The notes below the pieces were generated by a model. The model saw only the letters and a list, made by a program, of their open reading frames with translations, was not told the DNA's origin and did no database searches. A stretch of 26,499 bases of DNA, from IMG/VR virus record IMGVR_UViG_3300004477_000129, positions 1-26,499 of that record; one strand, 5' to 3'. The translations under genes and the position numbers were made by a program. Shown here in pieces: positions 1-16,991 of this stretch; positions within the stretch are counted from its first letter, which is position 1, and every line of letters begins with the position of its first letter. The DNA is from a virus.

Positions 1-1897
1 GGTGACCTGGGACCGGATAAGCAAACACGGCGGTATGCGCATCGGTGTGTATCGGGGCTGCGAAGTGAAGAACCTTTAGCTTATTCGGATCGATTAGGGT
101 ATCAGAAGACCCTAAGAACTCGGCTTCGAACTCTTGACGGAACTGAAGCTCCGAAGTGTTCTTAATCGTTTCATCTTTCCACTTTTCATCGCGGCCAGGG
201 ATCTGCTGCCATTTGACATCAATTCGCGCATATGAATTGCGCTTCTCTTCGCTATCGGTCCAAATCTTGTAGAACAACTCGAAACCTTTTGGTGTCGAGG
301 TGATCATCACTTTGGACTTCTGACCAGACGAAATAGTCGGATATACGGACGTGAAGAATTCATCTTGCAGCGTGCGTTGAATGTGGGCGAACTCATCGAG
401 GTAAATCAGATTGAACGAACCACCACGGACGGCCGACGACGACGTAGCGGCCGCTAAAATGCGAGACCCATTCTCTAAGGCGATATCGCCTTTATTCCAG
501 CCCTCGACTCCCTGTTGAAGCCACTTCGGTAGATATTGATACGCCGTTTGGATACGGTGCATAATTTCGCGGGCTTGGCGATCTTTGTTCGCTAGAATGG
601 CAATATTGAACTGCTCGTTGAACACAGCATACCACAGCAACAACGCCGCAACAACTGTCGTGTTGTGAGTTGGAATTAGGGTCGTGCCGGCAAGAAACAA
701 TTTAGAAGCGTTGTCCACCTGCAAACAACGAACGGGTACCGAATCGACGGGGACGATTTTCTTGATGTATAGACGGGAATTCTTCGGGTGGCCGGCACAG
801 TGTTGTCGCTCCAGTTTCCGGACCAAACGGAAAACCGGCAGATTAGTCGTAAAGCTCACCGTCCAATAGCGGCAATCGTTTAACATACGATAACGCTTTC
901 TGCTCTTGATTCCCAAGGACGCCAATAGCGTGCGGAAATTATCGACTAATACCTCGTTTTTTTGGTAGAACTCGCACCATCCCTTAGAGCGGCTGACGGA
1001 TCCGTCTGTGTCCATCAATCCTTGAAGCAACGCCAGTCGTTGTTTGCAACTTGAAGTCAAATATTCGATAGGGATGTGCTTGTTGCCAAATACGCCTACA
1101 GCTTTTAGATTGTGTTGGCCGGCCGGCAACGTGAAATAACGGACATTACTGTTATTGACGTCTGTCCATACTTTCCCGATTTTCATATGGGCGCTGTAGG
1201 TCGGTAAATCATCTAGGTGACACGTGATGGCGGCACCATTGGTAGCGCCGTCTCCCAACCACACGCCCAACTGATACGGATCGACCTTCAAATCGTCACG
1301 ATGAGAAAAGTCAACTGCTTGAGTGAAATCGATATATGGTTTGTTGCTGTGAGTTAGAAACGGAATTAGTTCTTCAGTAGTCAGAGTGCGGTGACCGGCG
1401 ATCCAATTGGTGCTATTAACAGTCCACAAATGCTCCGCATCTGCTACCAAGCTGTCTCCATTATCAAACTCTACACGATAACACGGCCGATCGTTCATCA
1501 CTTCCGTAATGAATTGGACGCGGGTAGGCTTGCCGTCAGGGCCAAAGATGTGATCGCCCACCTTAATGTCACCGACAGTAGTAAAGCCTTTATGCGGTGT
1601 TAATATGGGGGTATCAAGCGCCAACGCCTTCCCGGCTTGCCGCGGGGTGCGCGCAATGACGAAACGCTCATTGACAAACGTGTTGACCATATTCCGTTGG
1701 TAGTCATACAGCTTGAACGGTACTAATCCGTGATCGATATTGACGATCTTGATATACTTTTCAATAAAGTAGATTGGATCGCTTGCGCATTTGTCCCATT
1801 CCAGCATTTGAGCACGGGTGAACCCGTGCTTGACCCCAGACCGCTTGAGAAGCGGATTGCCGAGGTAGGAAGTCTTTTCGTCGCCTGCTTTACTCAT
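1..1897 (-). CDS. gp17: Terminase large subunit (gp17-like) with an in-frame intein; 3' end outside the window
   Basis: This is the motor ATPase and nuclease that packages DNA into the prohead. The ATG lies at 1895-1897 and the frame is open to base 1 (632 codons seen). Residues 1-90 form the N-extein, ending in RTPRQAGK. Residues 91-412 are an intein, and the C-extein resumes with TTVVAALLLWYAVFN. Joined, the exteins give RQAGKTTVV, a close match to the T4 gp17 Walker A region. Walker B is LIYLDEF (Asp501 and Glu502 of the precursor) and the coupling motif is ITSTPKG, near residue 530. The frame leaves the window in the linker before the expected RNase H-like nuclease domain, so that domain is not visible. 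The precursor lysine is residue 90 against about 166 in T4, so the N-terminus is shorter. The start overlaps the end of gp16 by 8 bases, implying translational coupling. Identity is secure; only the nuclease half is unseen. Confidence 0.95.
   Translation of the reverse strand, partial: MSKAGDEKTSYLGNPLLKRSGVKHGFTRAQMLEWDKCASDPIYFIEKYIKIVNIDHGLVPFKLYDYQRNMVNTFVNERFVIARTPRQAGKALALDTPILTPHKGFTTVGDIKVGDHIFGPDGKPTRVQFITEVMNDRPCYRVEFDNGDSLVADAEHLWTVNSTNWIAGHRTLTTEELIPFLTHSNKPYIDFTQAVDFSHRDDLKVDPYQLGVWLGDGATNGAAITCHLDDLPTYSAHMKIGKVWTDVNNSNVRYFTLPAGQHNLKAVGVFGNKHIPIEYLTSSCKQRLALLQGLMDTDGSVSRSKGWCEFYQKNEVLVDNFRTLLASLGIKSRKRYRMLNDCRYWTVSFTTNLPVFRLVRKLERQHCAGHPKNSRLYIKKIVPVDSVPVRCLQVDNASKLFLAGTTLIPTHNTTVVAALLLWYAVFNEQFNIAILANKDRQAREIMHRIQTAYQYLPKWLQQGVEGWNKGDIALENGSRILAAATSSSAVRGGSFNLIYLDEFAHIQRTLQDEFFTSVYPTISSGQKSKVMITSTPKGFELFYKIWTDSEEKRNSYARIDVKWQQIPGRDEKWKDETIKNTSELQFRQEFEAEFLGSSDTLIDPNKLKVLHFAAPIHTDAHTAVFAYPVPGH
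662..1627 (-). mobile_element. Class 3-type intein with LAGLIDADG homing endonuclease, in the gp17 Walker A loop
   Basis: This is a 322-residue in-frame insertion between Lys90 and the following Thr-Thr of the P-loop. It begins ALALDTPILT, a standard intein block A but with Ala in place of the Cys/Ser nucleophile. Block B is VADAEHLW, with His66 and Trp68 in intein numbering. Block F is VRCLQVD (Cys301), and block G is IPTHN followed by extein Thr+1, with Thr320, His321 and Asn322. Trp, Cys and Thr at these places are the WCT signature of class 3 inteins, which use the block F Cys instead of residue 1 for the first acyl shift. Two endonuclease motifs are present: LGVWLGDG (about 120-127) and LLQGLMDTDGS (about 200-210), each with its acidic residue. 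No stop or frameshift is seen, so both splicing and homing look potentially active. A class 2 (Ala1, direct +1 attack) reading is less likely because the complete triad is there. Confidence 0.93.
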
Positions 1898-2339
1898 TCA
1901 CTTCGGCTCCGGCTCGCAAATCTCTCAACATCTTCTGCATATCTGCGGTGCTACCAAAGAACACTTGATTATTGGCACCACCTCCTTCGGGGTTCAACTC
2001 CTGTGCAGCTTTTTCCACTTTAGTGATGTCTTTGATGGTTTTGCTAAGAGTCAACAGCTCCTTGTTAGTCGCCGTGAGCTGGCTAATAAGGGTGGCCACC
2101 ACTTCATACGCTCGCGGGTGTTGGCTTTGCTTTGCGAAGTCCAGCATATCTTCCAGGGCTTGAGCGCCTTTTTCGGCGAGATCCATCAAGTTGGTTCTGG
2201 CGTACTCGTAATCATTAGTCGCATTGGAATTGCGCGTATCGTCCGCTCGTTCCGCGACCGTCGTTAAAGGAGATGCTGAAAGAACTTCAACTATTGGAGC
2301 TGGGTCAACTCCCAATCTATTCGCGATTTCATTGGCCAT
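1890..2339 (-). CDS. gp16: Terminase small subunit (gp16-like)
   Basis: A 149-residue protein in the T4 gene 16 slot, directly upstream of gp17 and overlapping its start by 8 bases. Small terminase subunits assemble as rings, recognise or hold concatemeric phage DNA and regulate the large-subunit motor. The central part, about residues 42-110, holds DYEYARTNLMDLAEKGAQAL and then a long predicted helical stretch (MLDFAKQSQHPRAYEVVATL onward). This is the pattern I know from the DNA-packaging gp16 family of T4-like phages. The N-terminus (MANEIANRLGV) and the Gly/Asn-rich stretch near residue 118 look flexible. The length is close to T4 gp16 (about 164). The assignment rests on position plus the helical core. 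The 19 bases between gp15 and this gene show no clear promoter. Confidence 0.9.
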   Translation of the reverse strand: MANEIANRLGVDPAPIVEVLSASPLTTVAERADDTRNSNATNDYEYARTNLMDLAEKGAQALEDMLDFAKQSQHPRAYEVVATLISQLTATNKELLTLSKTIKDITKVEKAAQELNPEGGGANNQVFFGSTADMQKMLRDLRAGAEVNE

Positions 2340-2358: not shown

Positions 2359-3168
2359 TCACTGGGTCGTTGTGTTGATTATATAGCCGAAGTCTGAATT
2401 GGCGCTAATTTGTGCGGCTGGAATGCTTAGGGAGGCGTTCGCTGTTGGTTGACCGTTTGCCGTCAGGCCTGGGAGAACTTCCGTCGTGGAAACTGCCGAG
2501 TTTCCAGGAACAGTGGCGTTCGCAAAGAAATTGGTATTGGCATCCAAGATAATCGCAGAAGTATGAATCGGTCCGTAGAAGAATGCCTTCATCTCAAAGT
2601 TCAGCGTCCAGATGATAGCTCGCTTGGTGTTGAAATCCACATCGTAATTGTCTTCGATGTTTACGGAACTCAGGATCACTGGAATGTCCTTCTTTTCCAA
2701 CATTTCAGGAATCAAAGTGACGTCCGAGATCGTCCAGTCTGGTGTGAAGTACGGCAGAATCTGCTCGATAATTTGAGCGCCATCTTCGGCGTTGCGAACA
2801 AGGATCGAAAGCTGGAAGCCAATGTTATACGGGACTGGGGCGTATTGCGACTTTTGAGATTTGGAAGAATTCGGGAGCGGCTGAACGCTCTTGTTCATTG
2901 TGTTCATCTTACGAGATGCATCATATGTGAACGATGTGATCACAAACGACATTCTCGGAAGAACCTGATCGATGGTGCGCTGGAAGTCGGGATCCGTAGT
3001 AATACGAACCAGATACCGTTCCTTCGGTCCATAAGAAACAGGGACTTTGAGTGTTTGCAGCGGCTGATCGTTCTCATCAAAACGCTGGATGCTGATTCGG
3101 GAGAACATGCTCCCGAACAGCGACACGTATTTCTTCATCAAGCGATTATAGAAGATTTGATCAAACAT
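2359..3168 (-). CDS. gp15: Tail terminator / sheath stabiliser (gp15-like)
   Basis: A 269-residue protein matching T4 gp15, which caps the finished tail tube and sheath and forms the surface that joins the neck. It opens with MFDQIFYNRLMKKYVSLFGS, followed by SIQRFDENDQ and KVPVSYGPKERYLVRI. These are the recognisable N-terminal features of the family: a short amphipathic helix, then IxIQR, then PxSYxPK. A later segment around residues 100-130 (APVPYNIGFQLSILVRNAED) is also typical. The C-terminal 60 or so residues are rich in Asn, Ala, Ser and Thr and look like an extension beyond the folded core. The ATG lies 3 bases after the gp14 stop codon. The gene lies between gp14 and gp16, as in T4, which supports the call independently of the sequence. 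Confidence 0.92.
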   Translation of the reverse strand: MFDQIFYNRLMKKYVSLFGSMFSRISIQRFDENDQPLQTLKVPVSYGPKERYLVRITTDPDFQRTIDQVLPRMSFVITSFTYDASRKMNTMNKSVQPLPNSSKSQKSQYAPVPYNIGFQLSILVRNAEDGAQIIEQILPYFTPDWTISDVTLIPEMLEKKDIPVILSSVNIEDNYDVDFNTKRAIIWTLNFEMKAFFYGPIHTSAIILDANTNFFANATVPGNSAVSTTEVLPGLTANGQPTANASLSIPAAQISANSDFGYIINTTTQ

Positions 3169-3171
3169 GCG

Positions 3172-3900
3172 TTAATACTTCAGGTTCTCGTTGAAGGGAT
3201 CAGATTCTTTAAAGTCCGTGTATTGAGTCACAGCCTTATCAAACAGGTTATTCTGGATCTCAAACGGCTCGATCGCATCCAAGTCAAACTCCGCGAATAC
3301 GATCCTATCGCCTTCGGTGGTCACAATCGTGGAGCCATCGGATGCTAGGATTAACCACTGAGACGTGTCGGTGCTATGTTCAATAAAGACCGCATCGATC
3401 TCAGCCACCCCGGTAGCGAAGAGCTCGTTTGAATATTCGAATTTCTCTAGCGTCAGCTCATAGAACTGCAAAGCTCCGCGCTGGTAGAAAGACGATTCGT
3501 GTTCTACGAACGTGATTTCCATCAATTCGTGGGTCATCGGGAACCAAATCAAATCCCCTTCCCGAGGCCGGGCCGAGTTGATAACGCTCCCGATTACTTC
3601 CGAAAACCGAGTACGGGAAACGCAAACAGACAATTGGTCATTCTGCGACAAGCCGAACTTCGTCATAATATCACCGGCGCCACCGAAATTATCAAACTTC
3701 TTGATATACATTTCGAGGACAAACGTGGTAGTAAATTCAGATGCGGCATCTTCAGTGAACGTCTGACTTAGACCACGATGCGTTCGGGGCAAATAGGTGA
3801 AGTCATAGCCAAACGTCTGAATCAGCTCTGTGGTTAAGGCTGCGATCAGATCCTGTTCGGGCGTATACGCAAAATTATTGATCCACGGATTCGTTGCCAT
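3172..3900 (-). CDS. gp14: Neck protein (gp14-like)
   Basis: This 242-residue protein is a homologue of T4 gp14, which with gp13 forms the neck that closes the DNA-filled head and receives the tail. Visible family features are TFGYDFTYLPRTHRGL (about residues 30-45), VLEMYIKKFDNFGGAGDIMT followed by KFGLSQ (about 61-86), and SRTRF (about 95). I chose the ATG at 3898-3900 (MATNPWINNF) rather than the TTG at 3901-3903, because the TTG adds only one residue and the ATG has a GGGG ribosome-binding match about 6 bases upstream. The start follows the gp13 stop by only 3 bases. The C-terminal half (NNLFDKAVTQY near residue 220) is acidic. The gene order gp13-gp14-gp15 is that of T4. Confidence 0.93.
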   Translation of the reverse strand: MATNPWINNFAYTPEQDLIAALTTELIQTFGYDFTYLPRTHRGLSQTFTEDAASEFTTTFVLEMYIKKFDNFGGAGDIMTKFGLSQNDQLSVCVSRTRFSEVIGSVINSARPREGDLIWFPMTHELMEITFVEHESSFYQRGALQFYELTLEKFEYSNELFATGVAEIDAVFIEHSTDTSQWLILASDGSTIVTTEGDRIVFAEFDLDAIEPFEIQNNLFDKAVTQYTDFKESDPFNENLKY

Positions 3901-11198: not shown

Positions 11199-11206
11199 TA
11201 TTTAGG
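11199..11206 (-). promoter_or_regulatory. Late-promoter-like element CCTAAATA
   Basis: The minus strand reads CCTAAATA, six of eight bases matching TATAAATA. It overlaps the stop of the giant fibre gene and ends 23 bases before the ATG at 11175, a spacing similar to that of two other elements in the window. Confidence 0.45.
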
Positions 11207-14200
11207 AGTACCAAATCATCGCAAGCCGCGGATTGGCCGTGATTTGAGCGCCTTGAACGAATAGGTTGCCTGAGCTATCGATTGAAGTGTTGCCGGCAAA
11301 CGTAGCGGCAGCGGTAACCGTAACGTTGGCTGCTGTGAATGTGTTGGCCTGTAAGTTGCCGACGACATTGGCAGACGCCAAAGTGTTATTAGCCCCAGTC
11401 AAGTACGTGTTCGAAGCAACAGACAACAACGAACCATTTAGGCCCAAGCCCTGGCTAAACACAATGTTAGCTGCCGAAGCCCCGCCATCCATTGACAAGA
11501 TTTGGCCGACACCACTGAACTTCAGGTTGGCGCCTGAGAACACCACGTTCGATGAAATTGTCTGAGATGGAGCACTAGCCAGCAACACATAGTTGCTTAG
11601 GTTGGCTGTTAACTGGGCGGAGTTCACAAAGTTGGCGGCGGCCTGTCCACCCAAGTTCGTGGCGTTGTTCGCCGTCAGGTTAGCCGCACCTGATACGGTG
11701 ATGTTGGTGAATGTTCCGTTAGCAGCGGTTAGAGTATTAGCTTGGAAGCTTGTTTGAACGTTGGCCGAGACAAACGTCACATTCGCCCCAGTAAAGGTCA
11801 CGTTTGCGCTAATGGTCTGGTTGACTGCCCCTGCCAACAGATGGTAGTTGCTCAAGTTCGATGTCAACTGCGCCGAGTTCACGAAGTTGGCAGCAGCTTG
11901 GCCACCTAAATTTGTGGCATTGTTGGACGTTAAAGCAGCTACGTAAGTGGCGAAGTTGCTATTAGCGGTATAGAATGCAGGAAGCTGACCACCAAAGTTG
12001 GTGGCGTTGTTCGCAACCAAATTGGCCGTTCCCGAAACGTTGATGCCGCTGAAGGTAACGTTGGCTCCAGAGAACGTGACGTTGGAAGTCACGGCCTGGT
12101 TCGTGCCGCCGCCGAGCAACATATAATTGTTCAAGTTCGACGTCAACTGCGCCGAGTTCACAAAATTGGCGGCAGCCTGTCCACCTAAGTTCGTTGCGTT
12201 GTTCGCTGTTAGAGCCGCCACATAGGTTGCGAAGTTGCCGTTCGCGGTATAGAATGTTGGGAGCTGACCGCCGAAGTTGGTGGCATTGTTCGCTGTGATA
12301 TTTGGCTGCGATGCTGTCTGAAGTGTGCCGAACAAATTATTCGAGTACACATTCGCCCAATTGTTGGTGGCAGCCCCCAAATTCAACGTGTTGTTGGCGG
12401 CTGGTGTGATGGAAATGTTCGGCTGCCAGGAGGTCGTCGCATTATTATACAAGAACGTATAAAGAGCAACGCCCGCGTTATTGCCTAACTGCAGACCGCC
12501 ACCGTTCAAAGCGACTGAAGTATTGGAATTCCAACCGATATCCAGAACCAAATCGTTGGTCATCACAGCAGTAGAATTCAGGATCGTTGTGTTGCCTGTC
12601 AAGTACAGGTTGCCAGTTACCACCAAGTTGCCACCAACGGTAGCGCTTCCGGAAATCGCCAAGTTAGCTGCCGAGACAACACCGGAAGCCGTCACGTTGG
12701 CCGCAACGATGGTGTTGGCTTGGAAATTGGCAGTCACGTTGGCCGAAGCAAACGTAACGTTGGCGCCTGAGAAGGTGACGTTGGCACTGATAGTCTGATT
12801 GACTGCACCTGCCAACAGATGGTAGTTGCTCAAGTTTGATGTTAGCTGAGCAGAGTTCACAAAGTTGGCAGCAGCCTGGCCGCCAAGGTTCGTGGCGTTG
12901 TTCGCTGTCAGTCCTGCTACGTAAGTTGCCAAGGATCCGTTTGCGGTATAGTACGCAGGGAGCTGACCACCAAGGTTCGTGGCGTTGTTCGCGACCAGAT
13001 TGGCCGCCCCAGTGACGGTCAACGCGGCAAGAGTAGCAGCATTCGCTTGGAAAGTGGATGTAACGTTGGCCGAAGCAAACGTGACGTTGGCCCCTGAGAA
13101 AGTGACGTTTGAAGACACGGCCTGGTTTGTGCCGCCGCCCAACTGAACAACAGCCGCGTTGGATGCATAGTACGTTGCTGCCTGGCCGCCCAAATTCGTG
13201 GAATTGTTGGCCAGCAACACGGTTCCAGAAATCGTGCCAGCCACCACCAAGTTGCCAGCGACGTTTGCGTTGGAATTGAACTGGACAGTATTGGCGCCAC
13301 CATCAACCGATAGAGTGACCGTGTTGGCGTGGAATGTAATAGCGGTCACAGTGGCATTCGAAAACACATTTGCGATCGGCGCAGCAGTGTTGCCAACCGT
13401 AATTGAATTATTGACAATGACGTTGCGGCTGGACCAAATATCGCGACCAAACACATCAGCGCCATTGGCTGTGATGTTGCCTGTGGTAACAATCGTGCCA
13501 TTGACTGTGACGCTTCCGTTGACGACGCCACCAGTGTTGGAATTCAATGGAGTATAGGTCAGAAGAGGCTGATATCCATTGGCCGCAACACCACCGAGGT
13601 ACAACGAATTGTTAGCTGTGATGTTCGTGTTGCCAGTAACCGACAAGTTGCCGCTGACCAACAGGTTGCCGGCAACGTTGGCGTTCGATGTGATCTGAAC
13701 GGCATTAGCTGCTCCATCCACACCGATCGATACAACGTTGGCGTGGATAATGAACGCGGTATTCGTTGCGGTGTTGACGTATACGTTCGCAACCCACGAA
13801 GACGACGACGCGTTAATCAAGCCGAGCTGAGCAACGTTATTGGCTTGGAAAGTATTGGCAGTTACCGTGGCGGAGCTGATAGCAGAGACGTTGGCTGAAC
13901 CCGGATTCCATGAATTGGTGTTGCCGTTATAAACCATCAACTGGCCATCAACTGGCTTCGTGTTAGCTACGATTGTATTGCCAGGCAGAACAAGCACAGC
14001 AGTATTGCTTAACGTCACATTGCCCGAATGGGCTGCGGTTCCAACAAATGTGGTATTCGCCGTCACATTTAGAGTCGTGCCAGTGATATTCGCTGTAGCA
14101 GAAGATACCGTGAACGCGGTTGTGTTGATAGTTGCCGCAGCACCAGTGATCAACGATGTGCCTGTCAGGGTCGCGTTGGATAGCTGTGCGTTAGCAAGCG

Positions 14201-16991
14201 AAACATTTGCGCCGGTGAAGGATACGTTGCTGGACACCGACATCGTCGAACCATTGACGAACAGGTTGGTGCCGTTCAGAATCACGTTGGCCGAGAATGT
14301 TGCCGTTCCGGAATGAAGTGTGGTATTCGCAATGGTGACCGCACCATTCAACGTCGTCGTTGTATTGGCGCTGGTAGTGAAAACGTTGCCATTCAGAGTC
14401 GTGTTTGCCGTCGCGTTGATAGACGCGCCAGCCAACACACCCACGCTCAAGTTGGCGACATACGCGACGTTAGCAGTGATATTGACGTTCGACGTCACGT
14501 TGAAAGCACCACCTCCAATCGTGGTATTGCCGACCGACAGCGCGACGTTGGAGCTCTGAATCGACACATTAGACGTGGAATTCAACGATGTGCCACTGAT
14601 ATTTGCTGTGGCCGTGGTGACAGTGAACGACGCTGTAGAATTGCTTCCAGTAAAGGTCACGTTGGATGCTGTTACAGAGGCATTCGCCGATACAGTCAAC
14701 GGAGCGTTAATAGCCACGTTACCGCTGAATGTTGCATTGGCGGCAAATGTAGCAACACCGGTGTGAGCCGTCGACCCACCAAACGTAGCGGCGGTATTGC
14801 TGCTGGTAGCGAAGACGTTGCCGTTAATTGTGGTGTTGGCGGAAACAGCCAACGATGGCCCAGCTACGGATCCCGATACGGTGACCGAGTTCAGAGCGAC
14901 ATTAGCAAAGTTCGTTGTGTTTGCTGTGAACGTAACGTTGGCACCAGCAATGGTAAACGTATTTGCTGTAACCGACAAAGTGTTGCCAGAAAGCGTTGTA
15001 TTTGCAGAGGAAATTAACGCGGCAACGCCCGAAATTGTCAGGTTACCGGCAATGGTAGTGTTGCCGGCAGTAACATAGACATTCGCGCCGGAAAGCGACG
15101 TATTTCCGTTGAGAGTCGCTGTAGTATTTGCGGTGAATGCGCCAGCAACGCTCAACGCTCCGTTCGCTACGGTGTTCGCGTTGATAGTGACGCCGGCCGT
15201 GGCGGTGATTGCTACAGTGTTGGATGCGATCGTTGTCAGCAGACCGTTCAAGGTCGTGTTGCTGTTATGAATGACGGCGCCACCAAACGTCGCTGTAGTA
15301 TTAGCGCTTGTAGTGAAAACGTTGCAATTCAGAGTCGTGTTGGCTGTTACAACCAATGCTGGGCCGGCAACAGTTCCGGATACGGTCATGGAATTCAAAG
15401 CGACGTTGGCAAAGTTCGTGGTATTCGCTGTGAACGTGACGTTGGCGCCAGCGATCGTTAGGGTATTCGCTGTGAATGTAACATTGTTGCCGGAGAAATT
15501 GGTGTTTGCAGACGTGATGCTGGTCACTGGGCCAGCAGCAGTCGTATTTCCCGCGAAGGTAGTGGCTGTCGATGTCACATAAAGGTTAGCACCGGCAATC
15601 GAGGTGTTGCCGTTCAGAGTCGCTATGGTATTTGCCGTGAACGCACCAGCAACACTCAGTGCTCCGTTTGCAACAGTATTGGCAGTGATTGTGACTCCAT
15701 TAGAGGCTGCCACGACCACAGTATTCGACGACACATTCGTCAACAGTCCGTTAAGAGACGTGTTGCCGTTGTGAGTCACATTGCCGTTAAAGGATGCAGC
15801 AGTATTGACACTGGTAGTGAAGACATTGCCGTTGAATGTGGTGTTAGAAGCCACGATGAGAGCTGGGCCAGTGACGGCCCCAGAAACCGATACGGAATTC
15901 AGAGCGACGTTGGCGAAGTTCGTGGTATTCGCTGTGAACGTAACGTTGGCTCCAGCGATCGTCAGGGTATTAGCAGTGAACGTGACGTTGTTGCCAGAGA
16001 AATTGGTGTTCGTTGATGAAACAATAGTGGCCGGGCCACTCAGCGCAACGTTGGCAGCGAAGGTAGTGGCTGTTGATGTCACATAAAGGTTAGCACCGGC
16101 AATCGAGGTGTTGCCGTTCAAAGCTGTTGTCGTGTTGGCGACGAATGCCCCAGCAACAGAGAAGGCTCCGTTTGCGATCGTATTGGCAGTGATCGTCACG
16201 CCATTGGAAGCTGCCACGACTACAGTATTCGACGTCACCGTGGCAGTCTGGCCACTAATCGCGGTGTTACCAGTAATCGTTACGATATTCGAAGCGACAA
16301 CCGGGCCAGCGAAATTGGCGTTGGATGTTGCTGTGAAATTTCCGTTGACTGTGATTGAATTAGCTGAGACAATCGCATTGTTGCCCGAAAAATTGATATT
16401 AGCGGCTGCGATGTTGATCGCTTGGCCATTCAGACCGATCGTAGTAACGGTTGCGTTGCCGGATACCACAATTGCGTTGGCAGTGTTGCCGGACGACAAA
16501 ATGTAGGACGGAGTGTTGATGGTATAGCTATTGCTAGTGGCCGCGACTACATTAGCTGTTAGCTGCGCAGACAACGTATTGATAGAATAGCTGGAATTAT
16601 TAACACCAACGTTGGCTGTAATCGTTAGTGTCGGCCCAGCCACGTTGGTGTTAGCATTGAATGTGGCTGTGTTGTTAAAGGCTGCTGCGCTGTTGACAGT
16701 AACGCTAGCGCCAGTGAACACAACATTTGATGTGATGGCTAAATTCGCGGAATTCGCGACGGTACCGCCGCGAAGGGCAGTGGGGACAGCAATCGTATCC
16801 GCAGCAAAGATGCCTTGGACGTAAGCGTTGCCAGATGTCCATCCATACGTATTAGACCCGGACTGGCCAGTCGTGATGACTGTAGTTCCAAGCTCATACG
16901 ACAACTGGTTGGTACGATCCAACCAGTTGCGGAATGTTGCGGATTGAACTTGGATGTTTCCCGAAGGTCCAACGTATGCTGTATTAGCCAT
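11202..16991 (-). CDS. Giant repetitive tail fibre protein
   Basis: A 1929-residue protein very rich in Asn, Ala, Thr, Ser and Val, probably a long trimeric beta-helical fibre. Residues 1-90 (MANTAYVGPSGNIQVQSATF, GNAYVQGIFAADTI, TALRGGTVANSANLAITSNV) look like the virion-attachment end seen in related phages. Residues about 250-755 are three tandem units of 168 residues. The C-terminal third holds eight copies of an NNATNLGGQ-type motif (variants S for A and F for L), typical of phage tail fibres. Interspersed is a module with NDLVLDIGWNSNTS, then NTLNLGAATNNWANVYSN. The protein ends in PRLAMIWYS without an obvious intramolecular chaperone. The start overlaps the preceding small gene by 8 bases and its ribosome-binding site is weak, which fits coupling. 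Receptor contact at the C-terminus is inferred. Confidence 0.8.
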   Translation of the reverse strand: MANTAYVGPSGNIQVQSATFRNWLDRTNQLSYELGTTVITTGQSGSNTYGWTSGNAYVQGIFAADTIAVPTALRGGTVANSANLAITSNVVFTGASVTVNSAAAFNNTATFNANTNVAGPTLTITANVGVNNSSYSINTLSAQLTANVVAATSNSYTINTPSYILSSGNTANAIVVSGNATVTTIGLNGQAINIAAANINFSGNNAIVSANSITVNGNFTATSNANFAGPVVASNIVTITGNTAISGQTATVTSNTVVVAASNGVTITANTIANGAFSVAGAFVANTTTALNGNTSIAGANLYVTSTATTFAANVALSGPATIVSSTNTNFSGNNVTFTANTLTIAGANVTFTANTTNFANVALNSVSVSGAVTGPALIVASNTTFNGNVFTTSVNTAASFNGNVTHNGNTSLNGLLTNVSSNTVVVAASNGVTITANTVANGALSVAGAFTANTIATLNGNTSIAGANLYVTSTATTFAGNTTAAGPVTSITSANTNFSGNNVTFTANTLTIAGANVTFTANTTNFANVALNSMTVSGTVAGPALVVTANTTLNCNVFTTSANTTATFGGAVIHNSNTTLNGLLTTIASNTVAITATAGVTINANTVANGALSVAGAFTANTTATLNGNTSLSGANVYVTAGNTTIAGNLTISGVAALISSANTTLSGNTLSVTANTFTIAGANVTFTANTTNFANVALNSVTVSGSVAGPSLAVSANTTINGNVFATSSNTAATFGGSTAHTGVATFAANATFSGNVAINAPLTVSANASVTASNVTFTGSNSTASFTVTTATANISGTSLNSTSNVSIQSSNVALSVGNTTIGGGAFNVTSNVNITANVAYVANLSVGVLAGASINATANTTLNGNVFTTSANTTTTLNGAVTIANTTLHSGTATFSANVILNGTNLFVNGSTMSVSSNVSFTGANVSLANAQLSNATLTGTSLITGAAATINTTAFTVSSATANITGTTLNVTANTTFVGTAAHSGNVTLSNTAVLVLPGNTIVANTKPVDGQLMVYNGNTNSWNPGSANVSAISSATVTANTFQANNVAQLGLINASSSSWVANVYVNTATNTAFIIHANVVSIGVDGAANAVQITSNANVAGNLLVSGNLSVTGNTNITANNSLYLGGVAANGYQPLLTYTPLNSNTGGVVNGSVTVNGTIVTTGNITANGADVFGRDIWSSRNVIVNNSITVGNTAAPIANVFSNATVTAITFHANTVTLSVDGGANTVQFNSNANVAGNLVVAGTISGTVLLANNSTNLGGQAATYYASNAAVVQLGGGTNQAVSSNVTFSGANVTFASANVTSTFQANAATLAALTVTGAANLVANNATNLGGQLPAYYTANGSLATYVAGLTANNATNLGGQAAANFVNSAQLTSNLSNYHLLAGAVNQTISANVTFSGANVTFASANVTANFQANTIVAANVTASGVVSAANLAISGSATVGGNLVVTGNLYLTGNTTILNSTAVMTNDLVLDIGWNSNTSVALNGGGLQLGNNAGVALYTFLYNNATTSWQPNISITPAANNTLNLGAATNNWANVYSNNLFGTLQTASQPNITANNATNFGGQLPTFYTANGNFATYVAALTANNATNLGGQAAANFVNSAQLTSNLNNYMLLGGGTNQAVTSNVTFSGANVTFSGINVSGTANLVANNATNFGGQLPAFYTANSNFATYVAALTSNNATNLGGQAAANFVNSAQLTSNLSNYHLLAGAVNQTISANVTFTGANVTFVSANVQTSFQANTLTAANGTFTNITVSGAANLTANNATNLGGQAAANFVNSAQLTANLSNYVLLASAPSQTISSNVVFSGANLKFSGVGQILSMDGGASAANIVFSQGLGLNGSLLSVASNTYLTGANNTLASANVVGNLQANTFTAANVTVTAAATFAGNTSIDSSGNLFVQGAQITANPRLAMIWYS
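11640..13210 (-). repeat. Eight NNATNLGGQ-type fibre repeats
   Basis: In the C-terminal third of the giant fibre, the motif NN(A/S)TN(L/F)GGQ occurs eight times. It is usually followed by AAANFVNSAQLTSNLSNY or by LPAYYTANGSLATYV. The copies are unevenly spaced and share nearly the same DNA in places, so they form short recombinogenic repeats. Modules of this type are common in phage tail fibres. Confidence 0.75.
14733..16244 (-). repeat. Three tandem 504-base repeats in the giant fibre gene
   Basis: The same sequence word recurs at 15073, 15577 and 16081, exactly 504 bases apart, matching 168-residue protein units anchored on NTS(I/L)(A/S)GAN(L/V)YVT at residues 294, 462 and 630. Each unit also contains TIAGANVTFTANTTNFANVA, NGNVF and GVTI(T/N)ANTVANGALSVAGAF. 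The two units nearest the N-terminus are the more alike; the third has drifted. The ends are approximate. Confidence 0.8.

Follow-up and report, generated by a model that had tools for sequence, protein, structure and literature searches.

A predicted class 3 intein with a LAGLIDADG endonuclease domain in the Walker A loop of a T4-type large terminase

The window analyzed in this work is a stretch of 26,499 nucleotides from an uncultivated virus (IMG/VR record IMGVR_UViG_3300004477_000129). With a probability of about 0.94, its large terminase gene (terL) carries in the P-loop a class 3 intein of full length that contains a LAGLIDADG homing endonuclease and would be self-excising and homing, and the virus is a T4-like, probably aquatic myovirus.

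Position of the intein and its host gene

The intein is encoded by the minus strand at positions 662-1627, exactly 966 nucleotides or 322 codons, in frame in the terL open reading frame (2-1897), of which it forms residues 91-412 (Table 1); it starts with ALALDTPILTP, ends with IPTHN, and is present as a single copy in the 26,499-base virus record. The insertion bond lies between the Lys and the Thr of the Walker A loop (PRQAGK/TT, the slash marking the bond here and below), and removal of the intein yields the extein FVIARTPRQAGK-TTVVAALLLW, in which the Walker A motif is restored. The boundaries are exact, because the joined extein aligns without gaps across the junction with 77 intein-less TerL proteins (38-61% identity). 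An assembly error is excluded, given that the allele was found on three independently assembled contigs, i.e. the window and the contigs L002 and L003, which are identical to it at 2,688 of 2,688 and 5,106 of 5,107 nucleotides, respectively; L002 also contains the part of terL that lies past the window edge, and there the terL product has 808 amino acids, or 486 minus the intein. Nor is the intein match due to chance, since 755 phage records hold relatives at E ≤ 1e-5, the best of them with E=3e-79 across all 322 residues.

The extein matches Terminase_6N (PF03237, T4likevirus-type according to Pfam; E=9e-23) and its best PHROG is the terminase large subunit (E=7e-133); the ATPase domain match and the Walker A motif both place it among the T4-type terminases (Terminase_6N/gp17). 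The original prediction, which described an intein of this length at these coordinates, with the motifs HLW, VRCLQVD and PTHN followed by Thr+1, in a terminase of the T4 type, was correct on all these points. The neighboring genes, which encode the terminase small subunit and the tail sheath stabilizer, as well as head closure, head-tail adaptor, fibre and baseplate wedge proteins, are those of a typical T4-like myovirus. Among cultured phages, cyanophage S-PM2 (gp17), Methylophilales phage Melnitz and pelagiphage HTVC008M have the closest terminases (about 55-56% identity), and this identity suggests that the phage is an aquatic relative of the three. Elsewhere in the window, positions 11202-16991 (minus strand) encode a protein of 1,929 residues, most of which belong to repeats rich in Asn, Thr and Ser (ANTTLNGNVFTTSANTT and similar); the protein is probably a long fibre or is otherwise exposed on the virion surface.

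Table 1. Features of the terL region, with positions in the window
Feature	Position	Strand	Evidence or remark
terL, large terminase (T4 gp17-type), intein precursor	2..1897	-	PF03237, PHROG; 3' end past window edge
N-extein, 90 aa	1628..1897	-	ends ARTPRQAGK (Walker A through its Lys)
C-extein within window	2..661	-	starts Thr+1 (TTVVAALLLW); Walker B region LIYLDEFA
Intein, 322 aa, Ala1 to Asn322	662..1627	-	in frame within terL ORF
N-terminal Hint half, residues 1-72	1412..1627	-	phmmer match 1-71 to class 3 DnaB intein 6bs8
C-terminal Hint half, residues 292-322	662..754	-	phmmer match 295-322 to 6bs8
Ala1 (block A)	1625-1627	-	
His66 (block B)	1430-1432	-	
Trp68 (block B)	1424-1426	-	ADAEHLW ends at residue 68
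Cys301 (block F)	725-727	-	PVRCLQVD
Thr320 (block G)	668-670	-	PTHN = 319-322
His321 (block G)	665-667	-	
Asn322 (block G)	662-664	-	extein Thr+1 next
LAGLIDADG homing endonuclease domain, about residues 73-291	755..1411	-	PF14528 E=7e-9
Asp126	1250-1252	-	PYQLGVWLGDG, residues 117-127
Lys183		-	NKHIP, residues 182-186
Asp206	1010-1012	-	LQGLMDTDG, residues 201-209
Terminase small subunit (gp16-type)	1890..2339	-	phrog_445 E=1.5e-31; overlaps terL start
Tail sheath stabilizer	2359..3168	-	phrog_227 E=1.6e-74

Assignment to class 3

Class 3 inteins are defined by Trp at B:12, Cys at F:4 and Thr at G:5, by the lack of an obligatory nucleophile at residue 1, and by Ser or Thr at +1 (PMC5222942, PMC7664689, PMC5050341). 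The window intein shows all of these features, with Ala1, Trp68, Cys301, Thr320 and Thr+1. In an alignment of 25 relatives (30-58% identity), Trp68, Cys301, Thr320, His321 and Asn322 are invariant and residue 1 varies (A/P/R/L/K/G); the +1 residue is Ser or Thr in all tabulated class 3-type relatives. A phmmer search against the PDB placed the class 3 mycobacterial DnaB inteins at the top, 6bs8 with E=2e-30 and 6rix and 6riy to 5e-27, the next match being at 2.5e-4. The Pfam model Intein_splicing (PF14890) did not match the window intein and, when used to collect class 1 references, returned nothing from the window or from four mycobacterial genomes with related inteins; the small class 1 comparison set was formed by seven Cys1 inteins that do not have the W-C-T residues, taken from the fetched loci, all of them phage or environmental.

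The splicing-domain tree included 53 inteins and 102 columns, with these seven Cys1 rows and no class 2 rows. The seven form one side of a branch with a support of 100/99, the window intein being outside, and the split reached 100/100 after the five diagnostic columns were dropped; a class 1 reading is rejected. The original prediction of a class 3 (WCT, Ala1) intein had named such a tree beforehand as a test, a place among class 1 inteins being the outcome that would speak against it, and the assignment is now supported by the residues, the tree, the nearest solved structures and a structural model. The position within class 3 is not resolved by the 102 columns.

Predicted fold, endonuclease and mechanism

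The AlphaFold2 model of the intein, built with a 25-sequence alignment, has a mean pLDDT of 94.9 and a pTM of 0.92, and displays a confident Hint fold together with a LAGLIDADG endonuclease. In Foldseek comparisons the model gave target-normalised TM values of 0.78-0.84 with 6bs8, 6rix and 6riy, and query-normalised values of about 0.75-0.79 with most chains of whole PI-SceI; this fold, the terminal His-Asn pair and the seamless extein left upon removal are those of a Hint intein. The endonuclease domain has two LAGLIDADG-type motifs (LGVWLGDG and LQGLMDTDG), each with its catalytic acid, and it is probably active, judging from the PF14528 match and from Asp126, Lys183 and Asp206, which are invariant in the 25 relatives.

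We infer the splicing chemistry and the DNA cleavage from experiments on related inteins, the nearest ones with such data being TerL inteins of mycobacteriophages: that of Gaia spliced in vivo in a reporter, and that of Bethlehem, of class 3, has an active endonuclease that cut an intein-less allele (PMC5050341). By analogy, the Hint domain would excise itself after translation; Cys301 would attack the Lys-Ala1 peptide bond, forming the block F branch, the N-extein would then be transferred to Thr+1 (block G branch), and Asn322 would cyclise, so that the exteins are joined as PRQAGK-TT with the Walker A motif and the ATPase restored. During co-infection, a terL allele that lacks the intein would be cleaved within its Walker A codons by the endonuclease, and recombination would then copy the intein into the cut allele.

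The absence of a nucleophile at residue 1 can also be read as that of a class 2-type intein, in which Thr+1 would attack the N-terminal junction directly and Cys301 would not be the first nucleophile. Alanine at position 1 does occur in class 2; however, Cys F:4, Trp B:12 and Thr G:5 together are the signature of class 3, in which Cys F:4 is essential and Trp B:12 important (PMC5222942), the Trp and the Cys are invariant in 25 of the 25 aligned relatives, and the nearest structures are class 3, which leaves a class 2-type pathway hardly conceivable. We also consider it very unlikely that the element is a degraded class 3 intein, either unable to splice, with a broken terminase as the consequence, or with a dead endonuclease. 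Decay of this kind has a precedent, as a class 3-type intein of Arthrobacter is reported as a pseudogene (PMC3196547), and some relatives with a good sequence may be non-splicing. In contrast, the window intein retains an open frame, all the splicing residues and both LAGLIDADG aspartates; its predicted fold is confident, its GC content (0.486) is close to that of the extein (0.495), and the same allele is carried by three independently assembled contigs. Moreover, a non-splicing intein at this place should be lethal, given that TerL is required for packaging. The complete class 3 intein with its endonuclease is the preferred reading.

Distribution of the intein among terminases

The element is sporadic and probably homing, because in 77 of the 89 related terminases examined the same site is empty, these 77 having been retrieved with the joined extein as the query; the ratio is not an estimate of frequency, since the 12 intein-bearing TerL loci include the window allele and several phages picked for having an intein. 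In these 12 loci the insertion is at the same Walker A bond. On the terminase tree, which has long branches, that of the window among them, the presence of the intein requires at least five state changes, a pattern compatible with its sporadic gain and loss. The fetched empty alleles included no close relative of the window allele, the best match over the 48-nucleotide site being 27 of 48, so that no immediate homing target was found. The GC values given above do not support the idea that the intein came recently from a donor of different composition.

In the endonuclease-domain tree the window intein joins that of an IMG/VR relative (L004, 58% identical; SH-aLRT 97), and the two group with the RaK2-type and B23-type TerL inteins (SH-aLRT 90, with an open fork); the intein of Krischvirus ELT3, which has the identical insertion site, is placed elsewhere. 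It could be proposed, though with little likelihood, that the class 3 inteins at the P-loop of T4-superfamily terminases would be one site-specific lineage, persisting and exchanged among marine and cyano-myoviruses, jumbo phages of enterobacteria and the phage studied here; their splicing might even be conditional and set the time of ATPase activation and packaging.

Comparison with known inteins

The rarity that the original prediction implied was overstated, as class 3 inteins in large terminases have already been published (PMC5050341) and sequenced T4-superfamily terminases have them at the same site: in the deposited sequences of B23, RaK2, JNE01, Muenster and Krischvirus ELT3 the W-C-T set is complete and the insertion is at the identical Walker A bond. 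Our literature search found no paper that names the TerL inteins of the T4 superfamily as class 3, and for this group the label may be unpublished, though it is immediate from public records. With the window, the class 3 inteins known from mycobacteriophages, cyanophages and enterobacterial T4-like and jumbo phages gain a member from an uncultivated, probably aquatic myovirus; it supports the published view of class 3 inteins circulating in phage ATPases, a picture that is unchanged, and is a further case with which site-specific homing at the terminase P-loop can be mapped.

The mycobacteriophage inteins TerL1-c, -d and -e (e.g. Gaia gp2 and Bethlehem gp10; PMC5050341) share with the window intein Ala1, the W-C-T set, the LAGLIDADG endonuclease and a terminase ATPase as host, and that of Gaia is 40.5% identical to it over 100% of the length; in contrast, their host terminase is of the Terminase_1 type, and in the Gaia-type relative Nebkiss the insertion is at FIILNE/A and not at the Lys-Thr bond of the Walker A loop. 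The TerL intein of Synechococcus phage B23 (Kyanoviridae, MN695335) has the same site (PRQxGK/T), the W-C-T set and a T4-type terminase, and differs only in sequence divergence (44% identity over 100%); the gene that carries it is annotated merely as terminase. Those of RaK2 (Alcyoneusvirus), JNE01 (Asteriusvirus) and Muenster are also in gp17-like TerL proteins (ARQMGK/T, W-C-T, 39-42% identity), but these are jumbo enterobacterial phages and the Muenster intein has Leu1; Hint and LAGLIDADG domains in TerL of RaK2 and K64-1 have been noted (PMC5259590). Krischvirus ELT3 (Straboviridae) is a true T4-family phage, whose TerL intein (SRQLGK/T, W-C-T) has sequence divergence as the sole difference; the Krischvirus inteins are 37-38% identical to that of the window, other records of the genus, e.g. 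FL15 and ECD7, matching it similarly. For Salmonella phage Maynard, called T4-like, an intein-interrupted TerL has been reported, with class and site unstated (PMC3868846). The Mycobacterium DnaB inteins 6bs8, 6rix and 6riy, the closest solved structures, share the Hint fold and the catalytic set, whereas they are mini-inteins without endonuclease in a bacterial helicase. The inteins of Pectobacterium phage CB7 were dropped as a precedent, since they are located in a helicase and in NrdA/NrdB.

Several of the inteins retrieved have unusual residues. In the class 3-type TerL intein of Acidovorax phage ACF1 (L050:463-1512), Cys1 coexists with a complete W-C-T set, so that the first nucleophiles of class 1 and class 3 are found together. 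Among class 3-like inteins, Asn replaces Trp B:12 in Vibrio phage JSF3 (L056), and Ser replaces Thr G:5 in TerL of Gordonia phage Gmala1 (L059). The environmental virus contig L037 has, in an ORF from position 3410, a Cys1 intein by an ARGGGKS P-loop with Ala at +1 (VTHN/A), which should block normal splicing. The intein-bearing gene of Escherichia phage FL15 (L149:1709-4525) is annotated as 'replicative DNA helicase DnaB', and PQ306574 and PP358550 are labelled similarly; it is flanked by the genes of the terminase small subunit and the tail sheath, as terL is in the related ELT3, and the DnaB label is probably due to its intein.
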